Assembly: GCA_024277115.1 (NCBI GenBank)
Contig: JAJRVW010000213.1
Span: 1-52,311, forward strand
DNA length: 52,311 nucleotides
Source of the DNA: Calditrichota bacterium
GTDB lineage: Bacteria > Calditrichota > Calditrichia > Calditrichales > J004
Direction: 5' to 3'
Positions 1 to 37,098 of this stretch are shown here, piece after piece (positions within the stretch are counted from its first letter, which is position 1; each line of letters starts with the position of its first letter). The notes under the pieces are model-generated. The model had not been told where the DNA came from. It worked only from the letters and a program-made list of their open reading frames with translations, and did no database searches. The position numbers were made by a program, and so were the translations under genes.

Positions 1-2997
1 ATTAAGAAATTCATTTTTTAAGGTTGTAACCTCCCGGCCGCTTATATCATATATTTTAACAGAAGCATTGCCAGGCCTGTCCAGGTAAAACCGGATTTTT
101 GTTACCGGGTTAAACGGGTTGGGGTAATTTTGAAATAATGTGAATTTTTCAGGTAAACCTCTATTACCATTTTCTTTCAGGGCCAATGGACTTTTAGATT
201 TTTTTACGGCACGTAAGTCATCAAAATAAATATGCCCCACTTCACTGCCACTTGCATCGTAAGTAAGTTGATGGCTATCTAATCTGTAAGCTGATCCATT
301 TAACAAATTATCAGGACTAATCCACGATCCAACCAGATTTGGATTGCTTAGATCCCACTCTACTAAGCGCCAGCCAATCCAGTCGATTGTAGTCCACGTT
401 GAAACTTCATGGTCGGGCCAATCGCCACCATGCTTTTCATCAATGGTAAACCGATATTTATTATTACTTCCATCACCAAAAATATATGTTTGCAGAATAT
501 ATGAGTTATCAAAAGTTATTGTCCGTGGAGCACCACCTGAAAGGTATTCACGAAGTAAATGTGTACCGGACGATAAATCCCACGCATATTTTAAACTACC
601 AGATTTTTTGATATTGGTTGATGGTACATAGTTGTCTTTATAATAAGAAAAACTAGTTTTACTTACATTAATCCCAACCGTTGAGCCGCTACCATTTGGC
701 GCCCACCAATCGCCTGGTTGTGAAAAATTTTCTATCATCATAACTTCCGAATAATGTGATGAATCCGTTGTAAAATCATAGGTAAAATCTGTACCAAGAG
801 CATTACCAATTGTGTCTTTAAGGGCACTACTTATAAAAATTGAATAATCTGTTGACTGAGCCAATTCTTCAACTGGAAATATATTTATCACAGATTTTTC
901 GTCTACCAGGTTTATAAGTATGTTGGCATCAATAGTACCTGTCCCGGAAGTTAAATAAATATTTTCTTCTGTAGCTGTTTCCATGTCAAGTTCTTCATCA
1001 ATAATAATCGTAACAATATTCTGAACATCAAAATCATTTACATCTTCATCATCATTTGGATAAGTGTATATTATTTGAGGCGGTACATTATCAAAAGCAC
1101 GGGTATAAAAATTTATTATATAGTTATCACCTTCTACACCATCAGCATTCCCATCGATACTTCTGCCATTTATATCTTGCACAGAATTGTTCAATGTAAT
1201 GGAGTAAGCAGTGTCAAAGCTTAGGTTTTTTTCCAGTTTCACTACTACACTTTTATTGCTGCTGTTCCAAGAATAAGATGTGATTATAACGGCAGGATCA
1301 AAAACGATATTTCCCGGCAAAGTTGCCGTATCCATGGTTTTGCTAAAGTCGATTGTTATTTCTTTTGTTACAGGTATTGTATCACCATCTGCCAGTCCAA
1401 TAGAGAGAACCACCGGCGCAAGAGAGGGAATAGGGTTGGATAGAGTGACCGGCGAAATGGCCGACTCGTTCCAGAAACGGTTCATTGTTGTGGCATAATA
1501 ACGATACGTTCCGTTAAAATCCTGGGTACCACTAATTTTATCAGTATAACTAAATTGCTGATCATTAAAAAAGACATCTAAGATTTCATCATTGTCCGGA
1601 TTGTAGTCTTCGTCTTCTGATCGGTAAATTGCAAACCAATGATTTTGATCTGCAGGTGTACCGGGTGTTACATCGATTTTATAATTTAGGGAATCCAATT
1701 TTGTAAGGGCAATTACAGGTGAGACTGGTATATCCTGTGAAAATAATTTTGTATCCCGAATTTTTGTTTTATTTGCAAAAAAAGAGCTGCCTGCTGTTTC
1801 CCAGTAGGCTTTGTCATCCCAGCTACCATAACTAAAAAACTGTGTACCATCAACCCAGGGTACGGTACGAATTTTTTCTACTACCGAGGGGTGATTATTC
1901 CAATCGCTGCCAAAATTATACGAGCCCGGCCCAACTGTGTACATCCTCCCAGCCTCAATGCCTGGCCCAATCCAGGTTTCCCAACAATTTGGGCAATCAC
2001 CCTTAAGCATACCATAAAAGCCATCTTTGGTTGTCCAGTGATAGTGCATGCCTGTAAGCTGATCGATATATCCCTTGTTGAACCAAAGCGCCGCATCCTG
2101 ATAAACCACATGGTAGCCATTCCAGCCACTCCAATTGTATTTACCAAGGGCCGCCGGGGAAAGCCTTACCCAGGGTTTAACACTTTGAACCGAGTCATGT
2201 AAGGTTTTTACTAGTTCGGTTACGCTCCACCGCCAATAGTTTTCCCATGAAACAAATTTTTGGCCTGGAATACTATCGGGAATACCGGCGGAAAAGGGAT
2301 GCTCAACGTCATATAAATAACGTCCTGCAGCCGCATTGGTTAGAGCCTCGGCCTCTTCATCGGTAAGCGGCGTATCCAATAAAAGTTCTTTTTTAGATTT
2401 TTTTTCCAGTCCTTGTCCCAACAACATGCTGGAATACTCGTTCCACCTAATATAGTCCAGGTGAAAACCATCAATATCGTAGTTACGTACAATTTCCATG
2501 GCAACGTTGATTGTGTAATCCCGAACAGCTTTTAATCCCGGCGATAGGGCACGGTTAGCTGTCATCGGGTTTCCATTGGGGTCTCTACAAACCCACTCAG
2601 GATGTTCTGCGGCAGGAGTTCCCGGGTCGGTATGTGAAGCGGAAAAAGTATTAAACCAAGCATGCAATTCAATGCCGCGTGCATGGGCCTGCTTGATAGC
2701 GTAACTGAGTATATCGTAATTGGCGGGGTTTTCGTTTGGATAATATGATCCGACTGGCTCGAAAGAAGAATTATAATAAGCCGATCCACCTTGTCTTACC
2801 TGCCAGAGAACGGCATTCATATTGGCTTTTTTAACATTATCTAGAATCTTATCAATCCGTGCTTTGCTGGCCTGCATATCATCAGAGCCGCTGCTATGTT
2901 CCCAAGTAATAACCCAAGCTGCCCTAAATTCTTCATTATTTGCTGCTATGCCGTTAATTGCAAATAAAACAATAATTATAAAAAGTCTTTTGATCAT
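1..2997 (-). CDS. Secreted GHL10-family glycosyl hydrolase-like protein with T9SS C-terminal domain, 3' end beyond window
   Basis: The frame is open from an ATG at 2997, preceded by AGGGA, to the left edge: 999 codons with no stop. A signal peptide (residues 1 to about 20) precedes a GHL10/DUF187-like domain (about 24-400), recognised by FRAAWV at its start, the QVRQGG strand, ELHAWFN and YDIDGFHLDYIRW (about 172-184). The acidic residues of that last motif are the likely active-site region. Fn3-like (about 415-520) and two bacterial Ig-like (Big_5/SbsA type, about 522-745) domains follow, then a beta-rich, possibly carbohydrate-binding region. A T9SS type A domain starts with NYPNPFNP near residue 956 and is cut by the window edge about 40 residues later. 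GHL10 proteins act, or are predicted to act, on glycans; the substrate is unknown. The gene lies 17 bases after the Fn3 protein gene of module 1, suggesting one operon and a surface glycan-processing role. Confidence 0.85.
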   Translation of the reverse strand, partial: MIKRLFIIIVLFAINGIAANNEEFRAAWVITWEHSSGSDDMQASKARIDKILDNVKKANMNAVLWQVRQGGSAYYNSSFEPVGSYYPNENPANYDILSYAIKQAHARGIELHAWFNTFSASHTDPGTPAAEHPEWVCRDPNGNPMTANRALSPGLKAVRDYTINVAMEIVRNYDIDGFHLDYIRWNEYSSMLLGQGLEKKSKKELLLDTPLTDEEAEALTNAAAGRYLYDVEHPFSAGIPDSIPGQKFVSWENYWRWSVTELVKTLHDSVQSVKPWVRLSPAALGKYNWSGWNGYHVVYQDAALWFNKGYIDQLTGMHYHWTTKDGFYGMLKGDCPNCWETWIGPGIEAGRMYTVGPGSYNFGSDWNNHPSVVEKIRTVPWVDGTQFFSYGSWDDKAYWETAGSSFFANKTKIRDTKLFSQDIPVSPVIALTKLDSLNYKIDVTPGTPADQNHWFAIYRSEDEDYNPDNDEILDVFFNDQQFSYTDKISGTQDFNGTYRYYATTMNRFWNESAISPVTLSNPIPSLAPVVLSIGLADGDTIPVTKEITIDFSKTMDTATLPGNIVFDPAVIITSYSWNSSNKSVVVKLEKNLSFDTAYSITLNNSVQDINGRSIDGNADGVEGDNYIINFYTRAFDNVPPQIIYTYPNDDEDVNDFDVQNIVTIIIDEELDMETATEENIYLTSGTGTIDANILINLVDEKSVINIFPVEELAQSTDYSIFISSALKDTIGNALGTDFTYDFTTDSSHYSEVMMIENFSQPGDWWAPNGSGSTVGINVSKTSFSYYKDNYVPSTNIKKSGSLKYAWDLSSGTHLLREYLSGGAPRTITFDNSYILQTYIFGDGSNNKYRFTIDEKHGGDWPDHEVSTWTTIDWIGWRLVEWDLSNPNLVGSWISPDNLLNGSAYRLDSHQLTYDASGSEVGHIYFDDLRAVKKSKSPLALKENGNRGLPEKFTLFQNYPNPFNPVTKIRFYLDRPGNASVKIYDISGREVTTLKNEFLN

Positions 2998-3014
2998 AAT
3001 TTCCCTAGATTTAT

Positions 3015-5153
3015 TTATCTGATTATAATAAATTTTCGAACTACATTCTCACCTTTTTTATATAATAGCTCATTTGTAATCGGATCTTTGTAGTCTTGTG
3101 TAACTTCTATATATGCCAAATAGATACCACTCACAGAAACCTGACGTGATAATGAAACAGATTGCCAGGGTTCATCCCCACTCCCATTTGTATGTTCTAT
3201 AGTTTGTACCAAATCACCTCGCTCCGTAAATATTTTTATTGTACAGAATGCAGGAATGTTATAGAACATAATCTGGTTTTCGCCTGCATCTTTTAAGAAC
3301 TGCACATTTCGAGAACTTATATTATAGGGGTTTGGGACAATCCTTGCGTCTTCAATTTTTCTGCCTGGTGGTCTTTGTAAAACAGCTCCTTTATTGGTTT
3401 TTGTATAGAAACGGCCACTTTCCAAAATACCCTTTGGATTTGCTATTCCCGATGTGTTATTACTGCCATCATTAAACGCAACCAGATAGTAATAATAGTT
3501 GAATCCCCTCTGAGGTGATTTGTCCTCATATTCATACACTATTTCCGGATTTTCCGTTCCCAGGCCACAAGCAAATATTTCTTCATACACAGTATCCGGT
3601 TTTGAGAATGCACGGTAAATTTTATATCCACCAAATCCTGGCCCCTCAGATTCAGATACATTCCATTTTAAACTGATTCTATCGCCTCCGGATGTAATTT
3701 CTATTAATGATGGGGGCAAGGGTGGTTGCGGGATATTGAAATCCAATTCATAATTTCTTTTTGCACGTCCAAAATTTTTCATTATGGAATCTTTGCCTGT
3801 GTAAAACCATGTATCTTTGAAAATATCTTTATCACTCGTCGTGGAACCGTCCGGTAAATCAAAGGGGCCTGAATCGGATGGATTATCAAATGCTTCTTTC
3901 CATCGATAGCCAATTGTTTCACACATTGTACGGCTCAAACCAGAGACAGATTCTACTTCAACAATCGTTATACTCTCTCCCGGCTCCAAATCGAAAGGGC
4001 CATAGCCAATCCAAACATTTGCCCCGCCACCATCATTTTTTCCAATCGTGCTTGGATCTGGATTTGAAAGCATATACGTCTCGTCCATGCGTTCAAGACC
4101 ACCTTTTCTTTCATATGGATTCCCACTTAACATATCATACAACAAATTCATAAACGAACCCGTTGTTAGATCACCCAAATCCGGATATGTATCGCCGGCA
4201 TGCCACCCGATATATGCCGGCTGATTTGGATTATCCGACGAGTCTGCAGGGCTTTTATCCACGTGGATTATAGCCGTCCCGGCATGTTGTGGTGCTGTTA
4301 GGCGTCCACGCCCATTTATGGCTGGGCCACCAATATTATCATGTGCTATAATACCCGATTGTCCGGCCCAACTGAATCCCGCTCTAATCCAGTCAACAAC
4401 AGGGTTGTCTTCTGTTATAATATCATTTTGGTGGTCAACATAATTTTCCCCACGGCGGGTTACCCATGAAAATTTTCCCCAGGACTGGCCACGGCCAAGA
4501 TTAGGCGCACCTTCCCGGCTTGTACTATATCGTGTACTCCGGCTGATACGTAACCCTTTTAATGGGGCGTTTAATTCGATCTCATCATCATAATCTGTGT
4601 TACCCGTGTTGGTATATTTATAAACTTTTATAAAATAATTGTCATGATACTGTTGGCTAAAGGCATAAATTTTGCGTGAAATGGTCAATCCTAAAGACGT
4701 ATTTACAATATTTGTAATAACCCTGTCTGCCAACTGATCGGGAACGATTTCGTCAACATCGCCCTTAAATGGCGCATTAATATTATCTCCATCAACGTAC
4801 ACATCCGGAAGTTCAAACTTGGCCGTTTGCTTATGTTCAATAGGAAAAAGGGAAAGACCTACATAATCTTTTACAAAATATGTTCCAAAATTTTCCCAAA
4901 CCCGGCCATTTACATCCGTAAAGTTTTGTACCGCAACCCACGAACGCTCAATAACCGCGTTATCTGTTAAAAGATAATCAGCTGGCCATTGTAAGCCCTG
5001 ATAATAAGAATTATTCCAAGCTCTCTCGGCGCCATAGGCAGTAAAATGGCTTTGGAGCGAACCGATTCGAATATACTGTTCTTGTGAGCCCGGAACCTGT
5101 GAAAAAGCTATTGAAGAGAATGATATAATAATGGTAAGTAGTATTTTTTTCAT
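3015..5153 (-). CDS. Secreted Fn3-domain protein of TBDR module 1 (type A), unknown function
   Basis: A 712-residue protein with a clear signal peptide (residues 1-18, cleavage after IAFS). The large N-terminal region (about 25-470) matches no family I can name. It is clearly paralogous to the protein at 12893-14968: both have a GAER motif followed by a GLxWPA segment, the string RKIYAFSQQ, and an IGGP motif followed by G-rich sequence. A fibronectin type III domain lies at about 480-580. The C-terminal domain (about 600-712) has VPNPYNISSR, CTIKIFTERGDLV and SGIYLAYIEV, and ends KFIIIR. It resembles T9SS or FlgD-like C-terminal domains without the NYPNPFNP signature. The gene starts 40 bases after the TBDR stop and is followed 17 bases later by the glycosidase-like gene. 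A surface-exposed TBDR partner taking the SusD position is inference. Confidence 0.8.
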   Translation of the reverse strand: MKKILLTIIISFSSIAFSQVPGSQEQYIRIGSLQSHFTAYGAERAWNNSYYQGLQWPADYLLTDNAVIERSWVAVQNFTDVNGRVWENFGTYFVKDYVGLSLFPIEHKQTAKFELPDVYVDGDNINAPFKGDVDEIVPDQLADRVITNIVNTSLGLTISRKIYAFSQQYHDNYFIKVYKYTNTGNTDYDDEIELNAPLKGLRISRSTRYSTSREGAPNLGRGQSWGKFSWVTRRGENYVDHQNDIITEDNPVVDWIRAGFSWAGQSGIIAHDNIGGPAINGRGRLTAPQHAGTAIIHVDKSPADSSDNPNQPAYIGWHAGDTYPDLGDLTTGSFMNLLYDMLSGNPYERKGGLERMDETYMLSNPDPSTIGKNDGGGANVWIGYGPFDLEPGESITIVEVESVSGLSRTMCETIGYRWKEAFDNPSDSGPFDLPDGSTTSDKDIFKDTWFYTGKDSIMKNFGRAKRNYELDFNIPQPPLPPSLIEITSGGDRISLKWNVSESEGPGFGGYKIYRAFSKPDTVYEEIFACGLGTENPEIVYEYEDKSPQRGFNYYYYLVAFNDGSNNTSGIANPKGILESGRFYTKTNKGAVLQRPPGRKIEDARIVPNPYNISSRNVQFLKDAGENQIMFYNIPAFCTIKIFTERGDLVQTIEHTNGSGDEPWQSVSLSRQVSVSGIYLAYIEVTQDYKDPITNELLYKKGENVVRKFIIIR

Positions 5154-5193
5154 TTATTTCTATTCTTTTTTTTATTAGACGAGATTTTTAAAA

Positions 5194-8100
5194 TTAAAAG
5201 TTAATTCGTATTCCAAAAAGAATATCCCTCGGATTTAAAAATGTAAAAGACTTAATATTTGGCATATCTATGTATGATTTATTTTTCTTTCTTTTCTTGT
5301 TTCGCGCCGTAATTGCAGGATCATTATTGGGGTTTTGCTCAAGAGGATCGTAAGCAACACCCACAGACCGGTAATCTCCAAATTTATCATTACCCTTTTC
5401 TTCTCCCGTTTCCCAGGCAAAGTTTAATGATTCTAAATAATTACGAAAATCAAAACTATCTGAGAACCCAGCATTGTTCATAAGTTTGTTGTTAAAGGCA
5501 TTATTGAGAACCATATAAAATTGTAAGTCAACATTTTTAATATTAAAATTTTTAGTGATCCTAATATCTGTGTTTTGATAATCCCTCCATTGAACATCGC
5601 CACCAAGTGTGTATAATACCTTTTGGGACTCTGTAAAATAACTGCCCGACTTCCAGTTCCATAAAAAACTAATATTCCATTTAGAAAATAGTGCGTCTAT
5701 AAAAGGATCTGAACCAAAATTGGCTGGTGAGTGAAATGCGATGTTCGCCCTTGCATACGGTCTTGGACGGGACTTAAAAGACAAAGGTGCTTTTAAAAGA
5801 TAGGCGCGTTGTTCATTTGGATTTTCGTAATTTTCTTTGACACCAAAATAACCGGAAGTCCTTACATCGTAAGTATAGTTTAATAAACCACTAATCCAGG
5901 AGCCAGCCTGTTTTGATAAAGTGAATTCAAAACCGCGAATATCTTCATAGTTATTATTTTCCGAGATGTTGTATTGTACCGCACCATTTAAACTTCTATA
6001 ATAAACCCAATCGGTTTGTTTGGTTATATCTTTGTAGTAGCCGGCAACTTTGATAAGAAACATATCCGAAAGGTTTTGCTCAAAACCCAATTCATACGCG
6101 ATTGTTTTCTCCAGATCAAGACCAGGGTTACCCATACGTGTAACCAGCCCGCTGGATTCTCTTTGAATCCTGAACCGAACGGATGAAACCGGCTCGGACC
6201 TGAAATGACCATAATTAAAATATAATTTTGAATTTGTGGAAATTGGGTGCGATATGCCTAGCCTTGGGCTTATAGCAAAAACAGGTTTTGAATCTTTAAA
6301 AGGGGCTTCCTCTTCAATTAAAGAACCTTTTTCTTCACTATAAAACTTGTCATATTTTGTTAATTCATATTGTTTGGTGTTTGATGCAGAATAATCAAAA
6401 CGTAATCCAAGATTTGCAATAAAACCTTCAAATTCCATTTTGTCCTGCAAATAAGCGCCAATCCTATAGGGCGAAACTTTAAAAAGCTGGGAACGGTTCC
6501 AAAAATTATTGGATGGGTTTACTGACGTAGATTTTATATCATAATTATTATAGGTAATCTGTAGACCTGTTTTAAAAAGATTGTTATTGTTGGCATTCAG
6601 GCTGTAAGAAAGGTTTAAGTTCCATGTGGAGACTCGGCTATCATCCCTGCCATTGTTCATCCAGCCGCCCATACTCATACCAGCAATTCCCGGATCATCA
6701 AATCCCATATATCCAAAAGGGGCTTCATCGGTAAAATATCCCGGTACAGGCTCATATTTTTTTTCAGTATCACGATCTTTTGTTTTATATGTGTTGTACT
6801 TACTGTTTTTGTATTGAAGCAACACTTCATAAAAAGAATTTGAGTTAATGGTTTCATTTAGCTTTATGCCAATTGAACTGCGGTATATTGTACTTGGGCT
6901 AAAATAACCAGGCATATATAAAATACTGCTGCCATTACTGCTATTTAAAAGATTTGCCACCTGTGACGTACTTCTTAATACAAAACCATTGGGTGTTGTT
7001 GTCCAATTATACGGCGAGACAGACCGGGTTTCCCCATAAAGACCACTAATGGTTAATTTGCGTGTATTTGTTAAATCACTTGTTATCTTTATCTGACCTT
7101 GCCGATCGCCATAGTTATCACGCGATAAAGGAAATATAAACATTTCTCTCAGATCCGTATAAGAAAAATAGAAACGTCCATCTCCTAAAGAACTACTAAA
7201 TGGCAACGGCCCTCCAAATCCAAGATCAAATGTATAATCTGCTTTATCAATTTGCCCATCTCTTCTGTGTTGCCATCTGTATAGTTTTTGTGCGCCTTCC
7301 GGGGTCAAATCATTTGTCGGGTCATCATCTGAAAGTGTTTCGTGAGAGACCGAATTCCAGCCCCTAAAATTTTTATATTGTTTCCGGGTATCAATATCCC
7401 AGGCGCCATTATCTGTACCTGTCCAGGCAACTTCCGGGTCTAAATAAGGCCGATTGAAATATGAATTTTTATCATAGATTGAATTACCAAAGTTTTTTTG
7501 TGCCGGTGCACTATATTGCGTATTAACTGACAGATTGTATTCAACCTTACTGCCTTCTTTTGTTATAACATTAACCAAGCCCGATCGTGCCTGGCCATAT
7601 TCTGCATTAAAACCACCGGTTTGAACCTGAACTTCATCGACAGATACCAGACTAAGTGAAGGGTAGGGATTATATCCGCGCTCATCATTTAATGAAAATC
7701 CATCCATAATCAGCGACGTTTCGTTTACACCGCCCCCGCGGATTATTATTCCGTTTGAGGTTAGCTCCACACCTGCCTGGATTGATAATGCCTGGTTTAG
7801 AGTGGTCACCGGTAACGATTCAATTTCTTGTACTTGCATTACCGACTGGCTATTAGAAATATCTTTTATAACGATATCTTTTGGGGCTGTGATTACAATC
7901 GTTTCACTTGTAAGGGATTCCTCTGATAGCACAATATTTATCGTGGTTGTTAAATCAATATTTATTTTTATATTTTTTACCCTTTTTTCAGAATATCCAA
8001 TATATGACGCCACGAGAGTATAAGTACCAGCCTGAATATTTATAATGGAATAAATACCATCTAAATCCGTTGCGGCCCCGATGTTGGTACCTTCCAGATA

Positions 8101-8229
8101 AATATTCACACCTGTAAGAGGTTCATTTGTATTTGAATCTATCACTCTTCCAGCTAATTTACCTGTGGTGGAAGCAAATAAATTTGAAACCAAAAAGCAT
8201 GACACAAAAATTGCAGAAAATATTTTCAT
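5194..8229 (-). CDS. TonB-dependent receptor of module 1 (type A)
   Basis: A 1011-residue outer-membrane receptor. It has a signal peptide (1-19), a CarboxypepD_reg-like beta-sandwich (about 24-105; GRVIDSNTNEPLTGVNI), a hydrophobic TonB-box-like stretch (about 107-120), and a plug domain containing IRGGG near 162, DGFSLND, and a GGFNAEYGQARSG segment. A C-terminal 22-strand-type barrel ends in a terminal Phe, as expected for BAM-inserted barrels. The family imports ligands through energised opening by TonB-ExbBD. It shares DDDPTNDLTPE, SYFNRPYLDP and the near-terminal IDMPN...FLNPR motif with the module 2 receptor, so the two are paralogues. It heads a probable operon with the Fn3 protein and a glycosidase-like protein. 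The ATG at 8229 follows a weak GAAGAG purine stretch. The ligand is unknown; a glycan is suggested by context only. Confidence 0.93.
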   Translation of the reverse strand: MKIFSAIFVSCFLVSNLFASTTGKLAGRVIDSNTNEPLTGVNIYLEGTNIGAATDLDGIYSIINIQAGTYTLVASYIGYSEKRVKNIKINIDLTTTINIVLSEESLTSETIVITAPKDIVIKDISNSQSVMQVQEIESLPVTTLNQALSIQAGVELTSNGIIIRGGGVNETSLIMDGFSLNDERGYNPYPSLSLVSVDEVQVQTGGFNAEYGQARSGLVNVITKEGSKVEYNLSVNTQYSAPAQKNFGNSIYDKNSYFNRPYLDPEVAWTGTDNGAWDIDTRKQYKNFRGWNSVSHETLSDDDPTNDLTPEGAQKLYRWQHRRDGQIDKADYTFDLGFGGPLPFSSSLGDGRFYFSYTDLREMFIFPLSRDNYGDRQGQIKITSDLTNTRKLTISGLYGETRSVSPYNWTTTPNGFVLRSTSQVANLLNSSNGSSILYMPGYFSPSTIYRSSIGIKLNETINSNSFYEVLLQYKNSKYNTYKTKDRDTEKKYEPVPGYFTDEAPFGYMGFDDPGIAGMSMGGWMNNGRDDSRVSTWNLNLSYSLNANNNNLFKTGLQITYNNYDIKSTSVNPSNNFWNRSQLFKVSPYRIGAYLQDKMEFEGFIANLGLRFDYSASNTKQYELTKYDKFYSEEKGSLIEEEAPFKDSKPVFAISPRLGISHPISTNSKLYFNYGHFRSEPVSSVRFRIQRESSGLVTRMGNPGLDLEKTIAYELGFEQNLSDMFLIKVAGYYKDITKQTDWVYYRSLNGAVQYNISENNNYEDIRGFEFTLSKQAGSWISGLLNYTYDVRTSGYFGVKENYENPNEQRAYLLKAPLSFKSRPRPYARANIAFHSPANFGSDPFIDALFSKWNISFLWNWKSGSYFTESQKVLYTLGGDVQWRDYQNTDIRITKNFNIKNVDLQFYMVLNNAFNNKLMNNAGFSDSFDFRNYLESLNFAWETGEEKGNDKFGDYRSVGVAYDPLEQNPNNDPAITARNKKRKKNKSYIDMPNIKSFTFLNPRDILFGIRINF

Positions 8230-8499: not shown

Positions 8500-8513
8500 G
8501 TTTTAAACAAGTA

Positions 8514-12242: not shown

Positions 12243-12294
12243 ATCTATTTGCCTCCAAAGCAATGCCGTTTTAAAGCTTGCAGAGATAACAATT

Positions 12295-14968: not shown

Positions 14969-14983
14969 TGACATGTCCTGATT

Positions 14984-21432: not shown

Positions 21433-21474
21433 TTGTAAAACTCCAAAAATATTGTAAACAATCTACTTTTAGGA

Positions 21475-24400: not shown

Positions 24401-24879
24401 AGAAAATCCGCAGAAACTTCACCGCCGTTCGATTTTAAACCGTCCGAAATAACATGTGCCACATAAAGCGTATCACCATTTTTATCCAAAACGGGACGAC
24501 CAAATTGATCGCGTTTTATCAATGCATCTTCGTGGCTTCCTTTAGGGACGACTACCTCTGAGGCTACAAATGGCCCGAACTCGTACCCATAACCAAGCCC
24601 TTCCCAAACAATATCGGTAATTCGGTTTCCCGGACTGGAAATAGAGCCAAAGTTCCAAATTTCTGTGGTGATTTTATTACCATTCATAATGGCGCTTTGC
24701 CTTAGCGCGCCACCACTTGCGGTAGCAAATTGTGCCGATTCCCAAGCTAAATAATCATTTATCTGGCCCTGGCTCCAAGTTTTTTGCATACCTTTTACGT
24801 ACAAACTATCAAGCTTTGTTTGCGAAAAGGCGGTAAATGGAAGAAGCAGAATAATTAATCCACAAGTTATTTTCCACAT
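21475..24879 (-). pseudogene. Fn3-domain secreted protein gene of module 3 (type B), interrupted by one in-frame TAA
   Basis: A single frame of 1135 codons from the ATG at 24879 to the stop at 21475, with TAA at 22261-22263 after residue 872. The upstream part keeps a signal peptide (LPFTAFSQ), the type B N-terminal region (MNGNKITTEIWNFGSI, VMDDRDN, RRGLGLEVE, GDPHIGGP), an Asp/Asn/Gly-rich calcium-binding-like insert (about 355-413) and an Fn3 domain (about 580-690). The part beyond the stop carries the C-terminal domain: VVPNPYVATN, CTIRIYTTAGELV, KKIGKFAIIK. The intact paralogue is at 31400-34222, where the same place is uninterrupted. Truncation removes the whole putative export and anchoring domain, so even if translated the product should not reach its usual place. 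A sequencing error remains possible but is less likely, given the damage to both neighbours. Confidence 0.82.
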
Positions 24880-25029
24880 AGTTATTAAAACTCCACATTT
24901 TATAAATTGACCTGATAAACAGGGTTGTTCAAAATTTTGTTAATAATTATTGATAGCCTAAATCCTATTTAGCTAAACTAATTTCTCCGTAAAGGGAAAT
25001 ACTTTTCAATTCGAATAGTTTCAAGACAA

Positions 25030-27740: not shown

Positions 27741-27939
27741 GTTTGTCGACTCCAAATGCAAATTGATGTTAGTTTGAGATGTGAACTAATTATCCTAATA
27801 TATTAAAAAACTTTTTAATTTAAAACACAAATGTAATTTTCAAAAAAGACTTGCTTTTAAGGAATATCAGTGTGTAGTTTGGTCAATTAGTTCACTTTCT
27901 TAATTAACTCATTATTTATTTAATACGGAGGTTTCTTTT

Positions 27940-29862
27940 ATGAGAAAACTTACGCTTTTATTTGTTAGCCTTTTTCTTGGCTTAGCAGTTATGCTTCAGG
28001 CACAAACTGTAAGCTATAAAACAGGTTATCAATTTCCTACAATTGACCAGGATTCTGTACTTAACGGCCTGAGTAGTATCCGGGGCATGGATCTAAGCCA
28101 AAACCCGTTTGGCGATGGTGTTGCCGGACTTGCTGTTACAAACTACTATGAGAATGGCTTTATTCACGTTTTTAAAAATACTGGTGATGATGCAATGGAG
28201 CTTGTATGGACAAGTCCTGCATTCGATAGCCTTGGCGGAAGTAGCCGTCCACGTTACGTTAAATGGGGCGATTTAGATAATGATGGTATTATTGAATTAA
28301 TCGCACCTTTTAATCAAAACGGGATTGTTATTTTTGAGTGGGACGGTGTTGCCGGTAGCTGGAACTTTGGTGATGCACCAGCAAAAATTATTGCCAGCCC
28401 TCTCTACCCCACACAAGATTCTTTAACAAGTTATCACTCAGTAGAGTTTTTAGATATTGCCGATGTTGATAATGATGGCGAAAACGAGTTGATGTTTGCC
28501 AATAATTCTACAGGCAGTAATTTTGACCGTTATTATGTTTTTAGCATTTACGGTACTTACTCAACAGGTGATGAAGGTTTTTCTGTTGTAAACCGCGAGG
28601 CAATGTATTACAAAAACTCTGGTGAATATGCAAATTATGGCGGCGGGACACCTTATGCCGTAGTTGCTGCCGACTTGGATGGCAATGGCGTTAAAGACAT
28701 GGTTTTCCATAACTGGAATTATGCGCATCATACGCCTGTTCGTTCAACAGCCCCGAATACATATGCTTTAGCAGATACGACCGGCGGCAACAACTATGTT
28801 TATGGCAATTACCCTGACGATTGTGTTTCTTTAGGCGGTGGCCGTGCCATAGATATCGATGGCGATGGCAAAGAAGAAGTATATTTCCCAATGTATAGCG
28901 TAAATGGACTTATTTTAATGGTTCATTATGATGATGGCGACTTAACACATGTAGACAGTACCAATGCGTATATGCTTGATGTTGTACCGGAAAATGATGA
29001 TCGTTTCGATTTCTTTGGCCTTGCAGGTGTTGGGGATTGGGATCAAAACGGTAAACCAAACCTTTATTTTGCTGCGCGCCATGGTAACTATATCATGACA
29101 TCAGAATTTCAGGGTGGCGAGAAAACAGATCCTGCAAACTGGACCCATCAAACACTTTATGATGGTTTGGACCTTGATTCTCAGATTTATAGCTCAATAA
29201 CAACAACCGACTCTGCTGGTGTTATTGTTTCTGACACTGTTTTACAAGCTGACAGTGAGGGCACAATAGCTATGAAAATTTTTGCAAACTACACCGATTT
29301 TGATGGCGATGGTTTCGAAGATATTCTTATGCCAACACAAGCATGGGGCGATAGCATTGAACTCCATAATTATACTTGGATAAAAGATACCGCCTGGACA
29401 GTAATCGATACCATGTATGCGAATACAGATTCTATGCAAATTGATACTTTAGAGTTTGCCCGTTCCATCTATGACACTGTTGATACCAAAATTGTAGAGC
29501 CTAACAGAATTTCTCTTCGTATGTTAGAGTCTTCTTATCAGGTTGGCCTGCAAAACAAAAAACTTACTGTCATTACTCCAAATGATTATAAGTTAAAGCA
29601 AAATTATCCAAACCCATTTAACCCAAGCACTAACATTGAGTTCTTCTTACCAATCAAGAAAAAGATCAGCTTAACGATTTATAATAGTGTTGGACAAAAG
29701 GTTAAATCGCTTATCAACAACGAAACCCTTTTACAGGGTAACTATACCAAGCAATGGAATGGCACAAATGATGCCGGTGTTAAAGTTGCAACAGGTATGT
29801 ATATTTATGAATTGAAATACGGTAACTTTACCAAATCAAGACGTATGACTTTGATCAAGTAA
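27940..29862 (+). CDS. Secreted FG-GAP/VCBS-repeat protein with T9SS type A domain
   Basis: 640 residues with a signal peptide (1-22, VMLQAQ). At least five Asp-rich calcium-binding FG-GAP/VCBS-type loops are visible: DLDNDGIIEL, DVDNDGENEL, DLDGNGVKDM, DIDGDGKEEV and DFDGDGFEDI. This is typical of integrin-alpha-like propellers. The C-terminal T9SS domain (about 550-640) has LKQNYPNPFNPSTN, a TIYNSVGQKVKSL strand, TGMYIYELK and final RMTLIK. Translation is strongly supported by CGGAGG 8 bases before the ATG. It is the only plus-strand gene of the island and is transcribed divergently from the decayed module 3 receptor; a terminator follows 42 bases after the stop. It is likely a surface-displayed or released calcium-binding protein. 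Adhesion is a common role for the fold, but the partner is unknown. Confidence 0.87.
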   Translation: MRKLTLLFVSLFLGLAVMLQAQTVSYKTGYQFPTIDQDSVLNGLSSIRGMDLSQNPFGDGVAGLAVTNYYENGFIHVFKNTGDDAMELVWTSPAFDSLGGSSRPRYVKWGDLDNDGIIELIAPFNQNGIVIFEWDGVAGSWNFGDAPAKIIASPLYPTQDSLTSYHSVEFLDIADVDNDGENELMFANNSTGSNFDRYYVFSIYGTYSTGDEGFSVVNREAMYYKNSGEYANYGGGTPYAVVAADLDGNGVKDMVFHNWNYAHHTPVRSTAPNTYALADTTGGNNYVYGNYPDDCVSLGGGRAIDIDGDGKEEVYFPMYSVNGLILMVHYDDGDLTHVDSTNAYMLDVVPENDDRFDFFGLAGVGDWDQNGKPNLYFAARHGNYIMTSEFQGGEKTDPANWTHQTLYDGLDLDSQIYSSITTTDSAGVIVSDTVLQADSEGTIAMKIFANYTDFDGDGFEDILMPTQAWGDSIELHNYTWIKDTAWTVIDTMYANTDSMQIDTLEFARSIYDTVDTKIVEPNRISLRMLESSYQVGLQNKKLTVITPNDYKLKQNYPNPFNPSTNIEFFLPIKKKISLTIYNSVGQKVKSLINNETLLQGNYTKQWNGTNDAGVKVATGMYIYELKYGNFTKSRRMTLIK

Positions 29863-30369: not shown

Positions 30370-31386
30370 TTAAAAAACTAATTTTATTGAAAAGCGCTGG
30401 ACATTGTTGAATCGGCCAAAATTCACATAGGCATAATCAAGGACAAGCGCCATACTTTTATCCAGTGAATAATTAAGGCCGCCACCAGCAGAAAAACCAA
30501 CCTCGGAATCAACAATACCAATCCCCTTGTAGCCTGATCTTAAAAAAACCATTTCCCTGAACCCATATTCAAAACCCACATTTAGATATTCATTATAATC
30601 ATTTGGCGTAACGCCATCAAGCGTGACAGTTACCCTGTGAAAATCTGTTTTGATTGGATCATAGGCGAAACCGACTCTGAAAGAGATCGGAATATCATAT
30701 TTTTCGGTATTCAACCGGGCAATTACATTTTCATTATTACCATCAAGGTTTGGGTCAATATCATTAAAAGTTAGCAAATCTTTGCCAACCAACTGCATTT
30801 TACCGCCATAATTTGCAATGGCCATGCCAAGCCTTAAATCCTCGATAACAGTATCGTATGTAATGCCAATATCTATGGCCATCGCAGAAGCCGATTCGTG
30901 CCATATTGTTTCTTGTATAAACTTAAAACCTATTCCGAAGGCAAATTTTTCTGTCATGTTTTTCGCGTAACTTAAGCCCAGCGCAAAACTAGAGACGGTA
31001 AAAAACTCCCCGGTACCCTCCGGTTTGTATTCCGTCCTAACTTCCATATCATCCATATTTAGCCCCTGATAATACAGCCCAAATGTGCCAATACCGGCAA
31101 ACGGCATAACTACAGCTGCAAAATCGTAGGTAAGGCCAGCAATCCAATCTGTCCGCACAAACATCACTTCGTTTGACTGAACCTTTGCTAGCCCGGCCGG
31201 GTTCCAGAATAGGGCTGATGCATCATTGGCTTCGGCAACGTAACTTTCACCCATTGCCGATGCACGTGCACCCACGCCGATCTTTAAAAACTGGGCGGCA
31301 TTTGTACCTTTTTTTGTTATATCCCCGGCATTGCTAAGGCCGATGGCGATAAGGAGAAGTATCAACGTTTTCATTATCTTTTTCAT
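30370..31386 (-). CDS. PorV/PorQ-family (UPF0164) outer-membrane barrel of module 4
   Basis: 338 residues from the ATG at 31386, chosen over an in-frame upstream ATG (31455) because that one overlaps the preceding gene. The ATG at 31386 has GAGGGA 8 bases upstream and opens a signal peptide (TLILLLIAIGLSNAG). The mature start AAQFLKIGVGARASAMGESY and ASALFWNPAGLA are the family signature. The rest is a beta barrel with the end DYAYVNFGRFNNVQRFSIKLVF-like, finishing in Phe. It is the intact homologue of the three-stop gene at 20395-21432. It starts 13 bases after the Fn3 protein gene. PorV carries T9SS cargo to the cell-surface attachment machinery; here a role as partner or shuttle of the preceding Fn3 protein is inferred from the repeated gene order. 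Confidence 0.9.
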   Translation of the reverse strand: MKKIMKTLILLLIAIGLSNAGDITKKGTNAAQFLKIGVGARASAMGESYVAEANDASALFWNPAGLAKVQSNEVMFVRTDWIAGLTYDFAAVVMPFAGIGTFGLYYQGLNMDDMEVRTEYKPEGTGEFFTVSSFALGLSYAKNMTEKFAFGIGFKFIQETIWHESASAMAIDIGITYDTVIEDLRLGMAIANYGGKMQLVGKDLLTFNDIDPNLDGNNENVIARLNTEKYDIPISFRVGFAYDPIKTDFHRVTVTLDGVTPNDYNEYLNVGFEYGFREMVFLRSGYKGIGIVDSEVGFSAGGGLNYSLDKSMALVLDYAYVNFGRFNNVQRFSIKLVF

Positions 31387-31399
31387 GACATCATTCCCT

Positions 31400-34222
31400 C
31401 TATTTAATAATTGCAAATTTACCGATTTTCTTTCCATATTGGCCGGCATCAACATGATAAATATATATCCCGTAAGAGATATCTAAGCCCTCATCTGTAA
31501 GCAGGTCCCAAGGTTCCATTCCATTTTCTAATGGCCCATTATGTTCAATGGTCCTAAGCAATTCACCATTTATGGTATAAATTCGTATTGTACATTTTGG
31601 TGGAATATTCATAAAAAGGACACGCCGCTCACCTCTGCCAACACTAAAAACTGAAGCGGGCGGGGTCTCATAGCTTGATGAAACCACATAAGGATTTGGT
31701 ACCACCGCTATATCAGCCATAAAATCTATTTTGGTGCTTACATCCGCTACAGCTGTTTGAAGGGTTTCTATCTCATATTTATCGATTAGCTCAAAGGGTT
31801 TAGCAATTGTAATTTTGATTACGTCCCCGGCAGATGGGCCAATTATAGCGCCCGAATTAGGATCCGAAAACTTAACTTCCCAGGTTCCTGTCGGAATGTT
31901 GTTCTTATGGATAATTGCTACAATGCGATCCTCTGCATCAATGGTGTCTTTATTGCTACTAAACAATATAATATCGAGCTTTTCATTGTCGTTTACATTC
32001 CATATTTCAAATTTTACGGGTATCGCGACTATAACCGCGGATACTCCAATTGAAGTATCCACAAAGGTATCGAAAAACCGTATTTCTATATCTCTTGGTA
32101 AACGGAAACCATTTTGTGGAAATAAGCTAATTGTAGTCTGAAGGGTACTCTTGCTTTCTTCAGTCCATCCGCTCAGAGAATCGATTATTGTAACAACCGG
32201 TTCATTAGTGATAGAAGTAATCAGCCCATCAAAAATAAAAGGAAAGCCACTTAGCTCATCTTGCTGTCTTACAACTGTATCACCTGTTTCGGTATTAAAA
32301 ATATTTGCAACTATTTTTCCTGTTGAGGAATCTTCAAAAGAAATTTCATACAGATCGCCTGTAACAAGGGTTGGGTCCAAAACTTTCACATCAATCGATG
32401 CGGTTGAAAGCCCTGCGGTATGATTGACCAGGCTTTGGGCGGTTTCATATCCGGGAACCCTTGGAGACGGCATAACCGCTACCAGGTTTTGGCCATCAAA
32501 ACGACCCGATTCTACCGGATGGATTCCTTTGGATGCATAGCCGGAATCATAAGCCGTTACCGAATAATAATAGGTGACGCCATTAATTACATTCTTGTCG
32601 GTAAAAGAATGAACAAGGCCTGTGTTTTTTCCTAAATCAAACCTGTAGCCATCTTTGTCAAACGGGAATAATCCTTCAACATTATTCTCGTTATCAAACT
32701 GTGCAATTGGCTTAAATGCAACATCCAATCCAAAGGAATTTGTAATAACAGGCCCCCATGTCTGGCCTTTATCCGTACTTTTATAAATTTTATAGCCTTC
32801 AAAATCTTTTACCTGGAAAAAGTCATCAAAGGAGTCTTCCGATTTTGTGTCCCAGTAAAGCGTCACTTCACGGTCACCCGCAATGGCCGATACTTTTGGC
32901 GGATCAGGCGCTTTTGTAAATTTATAGTTTCTATTATAAATATCCTGGGCCACCTCCGCATTGGCCTCTAAATCTTGTAAACCTTTTCCCATTAAAACCG
33001 CTATTGAAAACTGCTGTGTCTCACCTGGGTCAAGCGAAAAGTAGCCTGTTCCAAACAAAAAAACATTGTCTGCTTCCTGGGCAATATTTGCTTCATCAAA
33101 CAACCCGGGCTGTAATTTCTCCCACATGATATCATCTGTAGCGGGCGCACCTTCTGTTGACGCGTACCTGGGCGCTGTCATACTTGTCAGGCCAAGTTCA
33201 TTTCCTTGATCATCAAGCGGGCTTTCGAGAAATTTAAACCCAAGCCAACCCAGCTCACTCCACGGGATACTGTAATCATTACCCGATCCTTCTTTGTCCC
33301 AGGAATACACCATATTTGCTTCACGGTTAAACCCGGCATAATCATCTGCAAAATCACCGGGGCCACCAATATGCGGATCACCAAACATGGCGGCAACAAC
33401 TTTTTCCAACCGTTTATCGCTTACATTTTTTATTTCAATTATATAAAAAATTACATCTTCGGCAGGCGCTGCAGAAAATTGCAATAGCCGACAGGTTAAC
33501 TCTATACCTAAGCCTCTTCGGGAAGAATCATTTATAAAGGGATAGTAGTCAAACTCATCGTTGTCACGATCGTCCATTACCCAAAAAGCTTCCAAGTCGC
33601 CCGAAATTTGCCCCAGCGTATCTACGCCCGGCCACAAAAAGCGGTCGTTATCCCCTTCTGCATCCGGGTTATAAAACGGATTAGAAACATCTTGGGTTTT
33701 AGGCCAGGTATCCGGTTTGTTACTCATGGCCGGCGTTGGCGGTTTTGCGCTTGTATTTAAATATTGTGGGAGTGGCTGCCATCCCCAAACCTTGCCGCCC
33801 GGTGCACTGTCGCCACCGTCGATTAAAGCTTCAGAAAATATTCTGACCGTATCGCCAAAGGCATCAACAACTTCTGCACCAATCATTGGGCCAAATTCGT
33901 AAGCATATCCATGTGTGCTTTCGCGTGGCCACTCGATTGAGGGCTCTGTATTGGGTCTGCCGATCGAGCCATAATTATAGAAAACCGTCCGTATTTTATT
34001 TCCATCCATCACACCTTCGCGCCTATCGGCTGCGCCGGTACCTTTTAAAAGTTGTAACTTGTGTTGTCTTTCTGCCCATTGCTTCCATTCTTGCTGAGAC
34101 CAATACTTCATGGGCTTGTCAGATATCTTGGCCTGTGCCCCAACAATTGCCGGTAAACAAAGGAACAATCCAATAATAAGCGCCAGAAAAAGGGGCATAT
34201 AATAGTTCTTTGTGGTTTTCAT
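31400..34222 (-). CDS. Secreted Fn3-domain protein of TBDR module 4 (type B), unknown function
   Basis: About 940 residues. The ATG at 34222 is preferred over 34246 because GGAGG lies just upstream, although spacing is short (4 bases). A long signal peptide ends near AIVGAQA. The N-terminal half is the type B region, with MDGNKIRTVFYNYGSIG, FWVMDDRDNDEFDYYPF, RRGLGIEL and GDPHIGGP, shared with module 3. An Fn3-like domain follows (about 440-560; KVSAIAGDREVTLYWDT, FEGYKIYKS). Two further beta-rich stretches lead to a C-terminal domain with VVPNPYVVSS, CTIRIYTINGELLRTIEH and YGIYIYHVD, ending KKIGKFAIIK. Compared with module 3 it lacks the acidic calcium-binding-like insert. The gene lies 26 bases after the TBDR stop. 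It is presumably surface-exposed; the function is not known. Confidence 0.83.
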   Translation of the reverse strand: MKTTKNYYMPLFLALIIGLFLCLPAIVGAQAKISDKPMKYWSQQEWKQWAERQHKLQLLKGTGAADRREGVMDGNKIRTVFYNYGSIGRPNTEPSIEWPRESTHGYAYEFGPMIGAEVVDAFGDTVRIFSEALIDGGDSAPGGKVWGWQPLPQYLNTSAKPPTPAMSNKPDTWPKTQDVSNPFYNPDAEGDNDRFLWPGVDTLGQISGDLEAFWVMDDRDNDEFDYYPFINDSSRRGLGIELTCRLLQFSAAPAEDVIFYIIEIKNVSDKRLEKVVAAMFGDPHIGGPGDFADDYAGFNREANMVYSWDKEGSGNDYSIPWSELGWLGFKFLESPLDDQGNELGLTSMTAPRYASTEGAPATDDIMWEKLQPGLFDEANIAQEADNVFLFGTGYFSLDPGETQQFSIAVLMGKGLQDLEANAEVAQDIYNRNYKFTKAPDPPKVSAIAGDREVTLYWDTKSEDSFDDFFQVKDFEGYKIYKSTDKGQTWGPVITNSFGLDVAFKPIAQFDNENNVEGLFPFDKDGYRFDLGKNTGLVHSFTDKNVINGVTYYYSVTAYDSGYASKGIHPVESGRFDGQNLVAVMPSPRVPGYETAQSLVNHTAGLSTASIDVKVLDPTLVTGDLYEISFEDSSTGKIVANIFNTETGDTVVRQQDELSGFPFIFDGLITSITNEPVVTIIDSLSGWTEESKSTLQTTISLFPQNGFRLPRDIEIRFFDTFVDTSIGVSAVIVAIPVKFEIWNVNDNEKLDIILFSSNKDTIDAEDRIVAIIHKNNIPTGTWEVKFSDPNSGAIIGPSAGDVIKITIAKPFELIDKYEIETLQTAVADVSTKIDFMADIAVVPNPYVVSSSYETPPASVFSVGRGERRVLFMNIPPKCTIRIYTINGELLRTIEHNGPLENGMEPWDLLTDEGLDISYGIYIYHVDAGQYGKKIGKFAIIK

Positions 34223-34248
34223 GAATCCTCCAATAAACAATTTCATAC

Positions 34249-37098
34249 CTAAAAGGTTAGCTCAAATCCTACAAAAACTTCCCGTGGTTTGGAAAACCAA
34301 TCGGGCCTTCTTTGCCAATTTGCATCAAACTCGCCACCAAACAGCCCCAAACCATAGGTTGCGCGGCCTGTATTATCCCACACAAAATTTTCATTTAACC
34401 GATCAAACAAATTATAGACTTTTGCATAAACGGAAAATGTGTAATCCGTTTCCCCAACTTCAATCTTAAATGATTTTTTCATGTTCAAATCAACTTTGAT
34501 AATTGGGATTTTATTGGCGCTGTTTTCTTCGGCAATTTTAACAATATCGTTGGCGTCTTGCGGTGTATAAGGATAGCCGGATTCGAAACGGCCAATCATG
34601 CTAATAAGCCAATCACCCGGTTTTGAAACCAACGCGTTAATTCTCAATGCGTGTGTCTGATCCCATTCCAATGGTACAATCTTCTTTAAATTTTCTTCTT
34701 GCAGCCTGTAGTTCCGCCTTGTTTTAGATGGATTGGATTCATTTCCTTCGGCGACCTGATAGGTATAATCTACCGTTGCCGAGAAGAGTGAAGAAAATTG
34801 TTTTACCAGGCTGAAGTTTACGCCCCTAACCCGGCCATAAGCACGGTTTACAAAAACAGCGTAGGCATCTGTGTTTGGAAGTAAAACAATATCCTGGCCC
34901 AAAATATTACGCATGTCCCGTTGATAAATTTTTAGGTAGGCCGCTATATCGCTCGAAAGCTGTTGTTCAATACCAACTTCATAACTTATCGTTTTTTGTG
35001 GTTTTAATGCCGAGTTGCCCATATCTGTTTGTATTAAACCGGGCTTAACTTTATTGTTAAAATCTTGATATAAAAAATTATAAGGGGGCAATTGGAAAAA
35101 ATGGCCATAAGAGAAGAAGAGCTTCCCTTCTGAAGAAATAGGAAAAGCAAAAGCAATCCTTGGACTCAGCTGAATTGTAGGGTCTACCGTTTTATACCAA
35201 TATTCTTGCCTGTCCGTTAAAGTTACAATTGATTCGCCCGGGTCTTGTATGCCATTGCTTTCTGACCCATCTGCGTCATTGGTATTAGGAACGCCATCTG
35301 TCCCAAAGTCGCGCCAAATATTTTTATTTTTTAATGGCCGATTAATATCCGGGTCAGTGGGGTCGGATAAAACCCTGCCGTCCGGATCAAAATAATCTAC
35401 ACGCAAACCTACATTAATCACCATGTCCTGTAGTTCAACTTTATCCTGTAAATAGAATGCGATTTCTGTTGGTTTTCTCGTCCACTTATCATTTGTGAAA
35501 CCGGCAAGTTCAATAATATCACCGGGCGTCCCATTGCCATTATCATCTCTGGCCTCGGTCCAGTAGCCATTTAAGCTAATATCTGTAAAGCTTTCACCAA
35601 TATCATAAATACCGTTTCCATTAGCATCTATAAAGGGCTCATCTTTACGGTCCACATCCATATAATAAGAATGGTTGGCTAGCTTTAGGGATTTATACTC
35701 CAACCCTGTTTTAATTTCGTGGTTTTTAAAAAGCAGGGAAGTTAAATCAAATTTTAAAGTCGATTGATTTTGGTCGCTGAGTTGCCTGAAATTATCTGTA
35801 CCACCCGGGTAAAAATATTGGCCGGTACTATATCCATCCCAAACATATTTATCTGAAAACGGATCGCTGTCTAGGTAACGTTTAAAACTTTTATCCAGGT
35901 AACCATAAACAACCGAATAAAATGCCTTGGAACTGATATTATGTGACATTTTACCAATTAACTGGATGGCTGAATTAAACCGTGTTGGTAATCCGCTCGG
36001 CACTTCACTCCGTCTATGATCATATTCCTGATATTCTCTATTATCATAAATAGTTGTAAAATTAAAATTTATTGTACTATTAAATGTATAATGTAATTTT
36101 GTCTGAAAATTGTATTTTTTATTTGAATTTAGCGCGATTCTTTTTCCATCCCCTGTTTGCGTTATCACGCCGTTTCTTTCTAAATCCTTTGTACCATGTA
36201 TTCTTTTACCATATAAATAGCCGGCATCATTAAAATAACGGGCCGAAACATTGAAATTAAGTTTGTTGTCTATGATGGGCCCGGAAAACTGGCCTTCCAG
36301 TTCGTAAGTATTTAACGGGTCAATTTTTTCAATTTCGGATAAAAAGTATTGGCTATTCTTTTTACTCGTAATAATATCACCCATTTGGCTAGAGAAGCTA
36401 CCGCTGTATTTAGAACCGCCTTGTTTGGTGACAATATTTACAATACCAGACATCGCCTGGCCATACTCGGCAGCAAAGGAACCTGTAATTAAGGATAACT
36501 CCTCAATAGCATTTGTTGAAACATCTAAAGAAATACCGCCATTAATAGCATCGGTTACTGGAATGCCATCAACAATATAGCCCACTTCCGAAGACCTGCC
36601 GCCCCTAAAGTGGAGCGCGCCATTTGGGCCAACATTTACGCCTGCTTTTGTCTGTGCAATATCTTCAAAAGTTTCTACCGGGGCAACAGCTAATTCTTCT
36701 GCACCGATAACTGCGGCTGTTGCTGTTGCATCTTTTTGAACCAATGGCCGGGTAGCAATTACAACAACTGTTTCTCCTTCAAAAGCCTCAACTTTCATCT
36801 CAAAATCAATTTTAGTTGTTAAATCTACTTTTACAGTTACATTTTTAACTTCCTTTGTAGAATAACCAATATAAATTGCTTGCAAAGTATAGACCCCAGG
36901 AGGCACTCCTAATATAATAAACTCACCGTCTAAATCAGTGGCGGCACCCAGCTCGTAGCCTTTAATAACTACATTTGCAGAAATTAATGGTTCGCCTGTA
37001 TCGCTGTCGAATATTCTTCCTACAATTTTTCCTGTTGTGCCGGCAAATGTCTGCCCCAATAGAAAAATAAGTAGGAAAAGTATGTACCTTTTACTCAT
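34249..37098 (-). CDS. TonB-dependent receptor of module 4 (type B)
   Basis: 949 residues. It has a signal peptide (1-19), CarboxypepD_reg-like domain (about 20-105; FDSDTGEPLISANVVIKG), TonB-box-like ETVVVIATRPLVQKD, a plug with FRGGRSSEVGYIVDGIPV and GSFAAEYGQAMSGIVN, and a barrel ending FELTF. Two long loops (about 486-525 and 595-620) carry Asp/Asn/Gly-rich repeats such as DANGNGIYDIGE, DDNGNGTPGD and SNGIQDPGES, which look like calcium-binding EF-hand or dockerin-like loops. They are absent from the module 3 receptor. GGGAGG lies upstream of the ATG. It heads a three-gene operon ended by a terminator at 30252-30280. TonB-powered import is the family role; the loops suggest a calcium-dependent contact, as inference. 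Confidence 0.94.
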   Translation of the reverse strand: MSKRYILFLLIFLLGQTFAGTTGKIVGRIFDSDTGEPLISANVVIKGYELGAATDLDGEFIILGVPPGVYTLQAIYIGYSTKEVKNVTVKVDLTTKIDFEMKVEAFEGETVVVIATRPLVQKDATATAAVIGAEELAVAPVETFEDIAQTKAGVNVGPNGALHFRGGRSSEVGYIVDGIPVTDAINGGISLDVSTNAIEELSLITGSFAAEYGQAMSGIVNIVTKQGGSKYSGSFSSQMGDIITSKKNSQYFLSEIEKIDPLNTYELEGQFSGPIIDNKLNFNVSARYFNDAGYLYGKRIHGTKDLERNGVITQTGDGKRIALNSNKKYNFQTKLHYTFNSTINFNFTTIYDNREYQEYDHRRSEVPSGLPTRFNSAIQLIGKMSHNISSKAFYSVVYGYLDKSFKRYLDSDPFSDKYVWDGYSTGQYFYPGGTDNFRQLSDQNQSTLKFDLTSLLFKNHEIKTGLEYKSLKLANHSYYMDVDRKDEPFIDANGNGIYDIGESFTDISLNGYWTEARDDNGNGTPGDIIELAGFTNDKWTRKPTEIAFYLQDKVELQDMVINVGLRVDYFDPDGRVLSDPTDPDINRPLKNKNIWRDFGTDGVPNTNDADGSESNGIQDPGESIVTLTDRQEYWYKTVDPTIQLSPRIAFAFPISSEGKLFFSYGHFFQLPPYNFLYQDFNNKVKPGLIQTDMGNSALKPQKTISYEVGIEQQLSSDIAAYLKIYQRDMRNILGQDIVLLPNTDAYAVFVNRAYGRVRGVNFSLVKQFSSLFSATVDYTYQVAEGNESNPSKTRRNYRLQEENLKKIVPLEWDQTHALRINALVSKPGDWLISMIGRFESGYPYTPQDANDIVKIAEENSANKIPIIKVDLNMKKSFKIEVGETDYTFSVYAKVYNLFDRLNENFVWDNTGRATYGLGLFGGEFDANWQRRPDWFSKPREVFVGFELTF

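Follow-up and report, generated by a model that had tools for sequence, protein, structure and literature searches.

Why should a TonB-dependent receptor (TBDR) gene stand again and again beside the gene of one kind of large secreted protein? The question is raised by a 52,311-nucleotide stretch of DNA from a Calditrichota bacterium (contig JAJRVW010000213.1), which we analysed whole and refer to as the window; the genome that it comes from is denoted G000. The window holds four modules in which a TBDR gene is followed by a gene for a large secreted protein with an Fn3 region and a C-terminal domain (CTD), here labelled FN, and two of these modules also contain an intact gene for a barrel of the PorV family, a family that takes part in the type IX secretion system (T9SS). 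We call the set of TBDR, FN and PorV-family barrel a trio. A preliminary description had proposed that a receptor, an exported partner and the partner's own shuttle form a distinct surface uptake or display system. The adjacency of the genes is indeed kept elsewhere and FN falls in no characterised family, and of the two functions we favor uptake; the shuttle role and the binding of FN to the TBDR are steps that we infer. We conclude that the trio is real and widespread, that it is undescribed as far as the open-access literature shows (no description was found there; subscription journals and preprints were not covered), and that it is most likely a SusCD-like uptake variant built on the T9SS, with dedicated PorV paralogues.

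Conservation and co-divergence of the trio

FN proteins fall into two subfamilies, A (modules 1 and 2, whose FN proteins are 41% identical) and B (modules 3 and 4), which have the Fn3 region and the CTD in common. They were searched for in 60 genomes, with a class set of 40 genomes, and in a wider scan of the genomes of 84,980 species. Most class genomes gave about 10-24 FN-B matches (one gene may give more than one match), FN-A was widespread too, and the wider scan yielded at least 535 confirmed FN relatives. The best 80 of these at least 535 loci come from Calditrichota, Ignavibacteriota, Kryptonia, Marinimicrobia (Fidelibacterota), KSB1, WOR-3/Stahlbacteria, Gemmatimonadota, Rhodothermales (Rhodothermota) and others.

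Conservation of the gene adjacency in other genomes had been set beforehand as a test of the preliminary description, and the adjacency proved to be kept across many phyla. Using profile searches, and counting only loci flanked by 300 bases or more, we found in these best 80 loci a TBDR gene directly upstream of FN in 69 of 72 cases and an adjoining PorV-family gene in 72 of 74, figures to be read with the provisos that the loci are non-independent samples and that the names of metagenome bins may be wrong. Among the class loci, the corresponding counts were 24/28 and 28/29 for subfamily A, and 9/11 and 28/29 for subfamily B. The 93 complete trios that were parsed have gaps of mostly 5-100 bases, with the PorV gene preceding FN in a few. 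The sequences show that the TBDR, FN and PorV-family genes are a conserved, co-inherited unit.

In G006, a genome of the order that is assembled as one contig, 16 of the 24 PorV-family genes are preceded on their own strand, within 9.5 kb, by a TBDR gene, against 0.7 expected; the same holds for 7 of the 18 in G029, where 0.5 would be expected. Ten subfamily B trios of G006 also co-diverge, most tightly FN with PorV (r=0.89, p=0.0002), then TBDR with FN (r=0.75, p=0.004) and TBDR with PorV (r=0.72, p=0.005). Because these paralogous trios co-diverge, free reshuffling of their genes is excluded. The co-divergence does not by itself prove physical contact between the proteins, and partial correlations (tail against PorV, N-terminus against TBDR) gave no clean separation of domain-specific co-divergence.

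Two further arrangements were seen. Three genomes have TBDR and PorV genes without FN, followed by a gene for a protein of about 370-380 amino acids (aa; L172:1741-6768, L156:1068-6086 and L186:2202-7202), and genes for SurA-like peptidyl-prolyl isomerases are common beside trios in other loci.

The predicted exported partner and its barrel

What kind of protein is FN? Neither Pfam nor NCBIfam places FN proteins in a family above cut-off; the other outcome that was to count against the preliminary description, a match to a well-characterised unrelated family, did not arise, and the idea that they are SusD relatives was dropped for want of Pfam support. Against solved structures, the FN-B sequence gave no match and the FN-A sequence only weak ones, to Fn3-containing chains. 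A hydrophobic leader of the Sec type is present in 91 of the 93 trio FNs. A lipobox was found in none of these 93, nor in any of 51 FN-B or 23 FN-A sequences, indicating that FN proteins are not lipoproteins.

The tail of FN points to the T9SS. FN CTDs are homologous to type-A CTDs (hhalign probability 95-97%, p 2e-8 to 3e-11), and a hidden Markov model built on FN tails, used as a reciprocal check, picks up type-A CTD cargo proteins. In the aligned sets, the last residue is K in 50/51 FN-B and R in 23/23 FN-A proteins. The type-B model CHU_C reached only 14.4 bits on one FN-A protein, versus a cut-off of 27. By these comparisons, the FN CTD is a T9SS export domain of a divergent kind. That the tail acts as an export signal is best supported, at the sequence level, by a pair of natural CTD swaps: we read the tail in this way because in two FN-A relatives an ordinary type-A CTD stands in its place (L179:2043-4058 in the same-genus genome G001, and L198:5793-10394 in G040). 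In the G001 swap, the tail is closely like that of the neighboring GHL10 protein, and a PorV gene was not found just downstream; the G040 protein is 1534 aa long in all and includes a long insertion.

In the T9SS, PorV docks onto SprA and uses its loops to hold the CTD of the cargo, a conserved lysine of which touches PorV (PMC10994853). The barrels of modules 2 and 4 are members of PorV_fam, with 203 and 213 bits on NF033709 (cut-off 90). The preliminary description had placed such a barrel in module 3 as well, where the copy turned out to be broken. On the canonical PorV model NF033710, the barrels of modules 2 and 4 score 81.2 and 62.7 bits, below the cut-off of 250. Trio PorVs in general reach 60-100 bits on this model and, in a tree built from 71 sequences, lie outside the branch of canonical PorV, and the housekeeping PorV of G000 scores 247.9 bits, near the cut-off.

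The trio thus has the same barrel family as canonical PorV, a CTD related to that of type-A cargo, and the conserved terminal K or R. Canonical PorV, however, is one gene that serves all type-A cargo, and type-B cargo relies on PorP/SprF shuttles that are cognate to it (PMC12618676), whereas most trio modules have a PorV paralogue of their own, on a separate branch of the tree. Type-B pairs such as SprB-SprF and Fjoh_3952-3951 resemble the trio in that the gene of the exported protein is followed by that of its own 14-strand FadL-fold carrier, in many copies. Unlike them, the trio has a carrier of the PorV family and a tail related to type A, and a TBDR nearly always precedes.

The SprA model has matches in 40/40 class genomes, 38 of them over cut-off, and in 13 of the 14 trio-bearing genomes that were reached through loci of other groups; it gave no match in the remaining one, a 1.2 Mb WOR-3 genome of which the completeness was not given. 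PorU was found in G000 and in G006, and G000 also has a separate canonical PorV and a PorQ. One locus, L136, is titled Caldisericaceae; this is probably a wrong bin name, because its SprA coordinates match those of class genome G012 exactly.

Proposed uptake and its alternatives

We next consider what such a unit might do. Like SusCD/RagAB, which import glycans and peptides in Bacteroidota, the trio has a TBDR that carries a CarbopepD_reg_2 domain at its N-terminus, and after it comes a large partner predicted to lie at the surface; there are many paralogues per genome, and the loci also hold carbohydrate-use genes, namely carbohydrate-binding modules (CBMs), glycoside hydrolases (GHs) and phosphorylases. 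Unlike in SusCD, the partner is neither SusD nor, as judged above, a lipoprotein, it has a T9SS-type CTD, and the unit includes a barrel of the PorV family. The trio TBDRs also stay below the SusC threshold: those of the window, each of which bears an N-terminal CarboxypepD_reg-like domain and a Plug, score 73.6, 60.6 and 91.9 bits (the last in module 4) on the SusC/RagA model TIGR04056, under the cut-off of 368.25. In BtuB-BtuG-type pairs, the TBDR is capped from outside by a lipoprotein, and such pairs are not known to encode a shuttle barrel. The proposed layout of TBDR and partner is alike, and the trio differs in its non-lipoprotein partner and its encoded barrel.

As first described, no SusD gene is seen in the window, and this does not extend to the whole genome: G000 has one PF07980 (SusD) match, on contig C48 (G000:C48:3346-7166, L175), downstream of its own, different TBDR. 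Because PF07980 is single in G000 and present in only 20/40 class genomes, never with more than three matches, we take SusD to be rare rather than absent genome-wide, and FN to be the common partner of these TBDRs.

With somewhat better than even confidence, we read the trio as a SusCD-like system for the uptake of glycans (oligo- or polysaccharides), the surface partner of which would be T9SS cargo served by a PorV paralogue of its own. FN would cross the outer membrane via SprA, and the co-encoded PorV paralogue, not the housekeeping PorV, would collect its CTD, by analogy with the type-B shuttles, and then deliver or anchor FN next to its TBDR. The supersandwich-like N-terminal domain of FN would be the ligand-binding surface partner, in the role that SusD has for SusC. 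The TBDR would then import the ligand in a TonB-driven manner, and T9SS-exported CBM and GH proteins of the same loci would supply it. Private PorV recognition, anchoring, the TBDR-FN complex and the substrate are all features that we infer by analogy. In a bolder form, TBDR, T9SS-exported binding protein and PorV-family barrel would make up a three-part class of outer-membrane transporter, with the barrel as a permanent third subunit and every PorV paralogue specific for the tail of its own cargo, that replaces SusD lipoproteins across the basal phyla of the Fibrobacterota-Chlorobiota-Bacteroidota (FCB) group; this we put forward tentatively, as rather doubtful.

The clues to the substrate come from neighboring genes and from a fold. 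Among 62 sampled genes directly 3' of a trio, there were 24 with T9SS tails, 11 with CBM20, 6 with GH16, 5 with malectin and 3 with GH94; among 53 sampled upstream, 35 had T9SS tails and 16 had CBM9. T9SS tails were found in 4/58 genes lying more than 4.5 kb away. GH16 with malectin, GH94 and GH9 follow the trio immediately in examples, and carbohydrate genes (CBM20, CBM9, GH16, GH94, GH9) stand beside it in several phyla. An AlphaFold2 model of the module 4 FN-B protein (mean pLDDT 82.7) retrieved with Foldseek mainly structures of GH94/GH116/GH161/GH149 phosphorylases and hydrolases (E down to 1.3e-6, probability 1.00), suggesting that the N-terminus of FN-B may be a GH94-type supersandwich domain without the catalytic barrel. 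Because of the carbohydrate neighbors and this fold match, uptake, mostly of glycans, is favored over display.

Several observations count against this reading. The FN-B model fits those structures only moderately (TM ~0.2 for the entire query, with an rmsd of 7-9 Å in most cases), and the FN-A model (pLDDT 33.9, with two admissible sequences) was of no use. The window's own neighbors are weakly glycan-related (GHL10), and genes more than 4.5 kb from trios are sugar-rich too, for example in GH130. The sugar context is therefore regional, a property of carbohydrate regions and not of isolated neighbors, and these far-flank genes were dropped as a neutral control for sugar enzymes and serve only for the enrichment of T9SS tails. 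A strict TonB-box-like motif occurs in only 38/93 trio TBDRs. Module 1 has an FN gene and no PorV gene; the next gene encodes a glycosidase-like protein of the GHL10 type that ends in a T9SS tail. TIGR04183 and PF18962 gave no match to FN proteins at E up to 1, and the G040 swap lies at a contig end, with its downstream gene out of view. Lastly, shared inheritance of a linked unit would also give the observed co-divergence.

Of the alternatives, display or adhesion survives best, though we consider it unlikely. Here FN would be an adhesin or layer protein of the cell surface that PorV keeps in place (compare SprB and SprF), and the TBDR would aid assembly or only share regulation. FN proteins are large and multi-domain, many T9SS surface proteins are encoded close by, and barrels of the SprF/PorP type can anchor type-B cargo (PMC9143113). 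Yet almost no unit lacks a TBDR, which diverges in step with FN, the window TBDRs have a full Plug and N-terminal domain, and the neighbors are CBMs, glycosidases and phosphorylases, not motility genes.

Alternatively, the TBDR could be an Oar-like exporter that helps FN over the outer membrane, where PorV receives it, which strikes us as quite improbable. To our knowledge, the Oar/PopC pair involves no T9SS, no PorV and no T9SS-type CTD. It resembles the trio in joining a TonB-dependent transporter to a secreted protein: Oar of Myxococcus, which has an N-terminal CarboxypepD_reg domain, is needed for the secretion of PopC (PMC6434023), and the trio TBDRs carry PF13715/PF13620. Such an N-terminal domain occurs in SusC too, however, SprA is present in these genomes, and the T9SS-type tail of FN is exchanged for an ordinary type-A CTD in relatives. 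We give very little credence to the idea that the PorV-family barrel is a FadL-like channel passing hydrophobic ligands, so that the trio takes up hydrophobic compounds; PorV is within the FadL fold and the module 4 barrel has a weak Toluene_X match, but the specific NF033709 matches are far over cut-off, the partner has a T9SS-type tail and the neighbors are carbohydrate genes. That ordinary T9SS cargo genes lie beside TBDR and PorV genes by chance is barely credible even with all three abundant in these genomes, chance adjacency being ruled out by the G006 counts and the cross-phylum adjacency, and co-divergence standing against it too.

The modules of the window and the wider meaning

The trio genes of all four window modules are on the minus strand, as are the window's other genes described below unless stated. 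All four have a TBDR and then FN, as first described, with module 3 surviving only as a pseudogene cluster. The spacing between the two genes is 2-150 bases, not 15-150 as had been given (40 in module 1, 9 in module 2 and 2 in module 4). Module 4 consists of a TBDR (34249-37098; CarbopepD_reg_2, Plug and barrel, with 70 bits on PF13715, 42 on PF07715 and 65 on PF00593), a subfamily B FN of 948 aa (31400-34246) and a PorV-family barrel (30370-31455, probable start ~31386). From alignments, the AlphaFold2 model and Foldseek, this FN is divided into a leader (~34139-34246), the N-terminal supersandwich-like region (~32915-34024), the Fn3 region (~32513-32914), a middle region (~31712-32512) and the CTD (31403-31711). 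An FG-GAP T9SS type-A cargo protein is encoded upstream of the TBDR (37256-38947; TIGR04183 36.5 bits). Between modules 3 and 4 lies another FG-GAP T9SS cargo gene, on the plus strand (27940-29862), and G001 has a similar protein of 640 aa (L180:17053-18972).

Module 2 comprises a TBDR (14984-18139; PF13715, PF07715), a subfamily A FN of 693 aa (12893-14974; Fn3 region ~13226-13591, CTD 12896-13225) and a PorV-family barrel (11259-12263). A small lipoprotein gene sits between FN and PorV (12295-12873), and LIP2a matches occupy the same position in L040-L044, which are some of the subfamily A relatives. PorV is followed by a gene for a TIG-domain lipoprotein (9972-11207; PF01833 28.5 bits), with LIP2b matches 3' of PorV in several loci, and then by one for a T9SS type-A cargo protein (8514-9881; TIGR04183 34.4 bits, PF18962). 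Module 1 has a TBDR (5194-8229; PF13715, PF00593, PF07715) and a subfamily A FN (3015-5153). The GHL10/Big_5 protein after it (1-2997; PF02638 105 bits, PF13205, partial PF18962) has a type-A tail and is truncated by the contig end.

Module 3 was ruled out as a working module by a frame split and stops, and an alternative decoding of the stops was set aside because the damage combines a split frame with codons of both the TAA and the TAG kind. The reading frame of its TBDR (25030-27761) is split at 26658-26661, its subfamily B FN (21475-24879) has an in-frame TAA at 22261-22263, and its PorV-family gene (20395-21381) has a TAG just before the frame and two in-frame TAA codons. G001 has modules 1, 2 and 3 in identical order, with module 3 intact (L180:9576-16853): the orthologues are 79% (TBDR), 78% (FN, 1129 aa) and 83% (PorV) identical. 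Because these syntenic genes are intact in the same genus at 78-83% identity, module 3 (20395-27761) is judged to be a cluster of pseudogenes that arose recently in the window's genome. Its PorV gene is followed by genes for a small outer-membrane barrel and for a lipoprotein (18372-20384), and open reading frames that are similar in size, of 238 and 441 aa, come after the intact G001 PorV (L180:7527-9562). Elsewhere in G000, a second FN-B gene (L169:2938-6507, G000:C87) is broken into two frames, by decay or by assembly error.

Many little-studied bacteria hold several to many copies of the trio, which looks akin to the machines that gut Bacteroidetes use for sugar uptake, with a secreted protein in place of the lipoprotein. 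If this is true, SusCD-like uptake can be built on a secreted protein where a surface lipoprotein would be usual, and the rule that one PorV serves all type-A cargo would fail outside Bacteroidota. Since proteins that are otherwise similar carry either FN-type or type-A tails, the specificity of shuttles for their cargo can be tested directly. The same reading would give a role to many orphan PorV/PorQ-family genes in these phyla, tie the T9SS directly to nutrient import, and provide a handle on the diet of uncultured Calditrichota, Ignavibacteriota, Marinimicrobia and KSB1.

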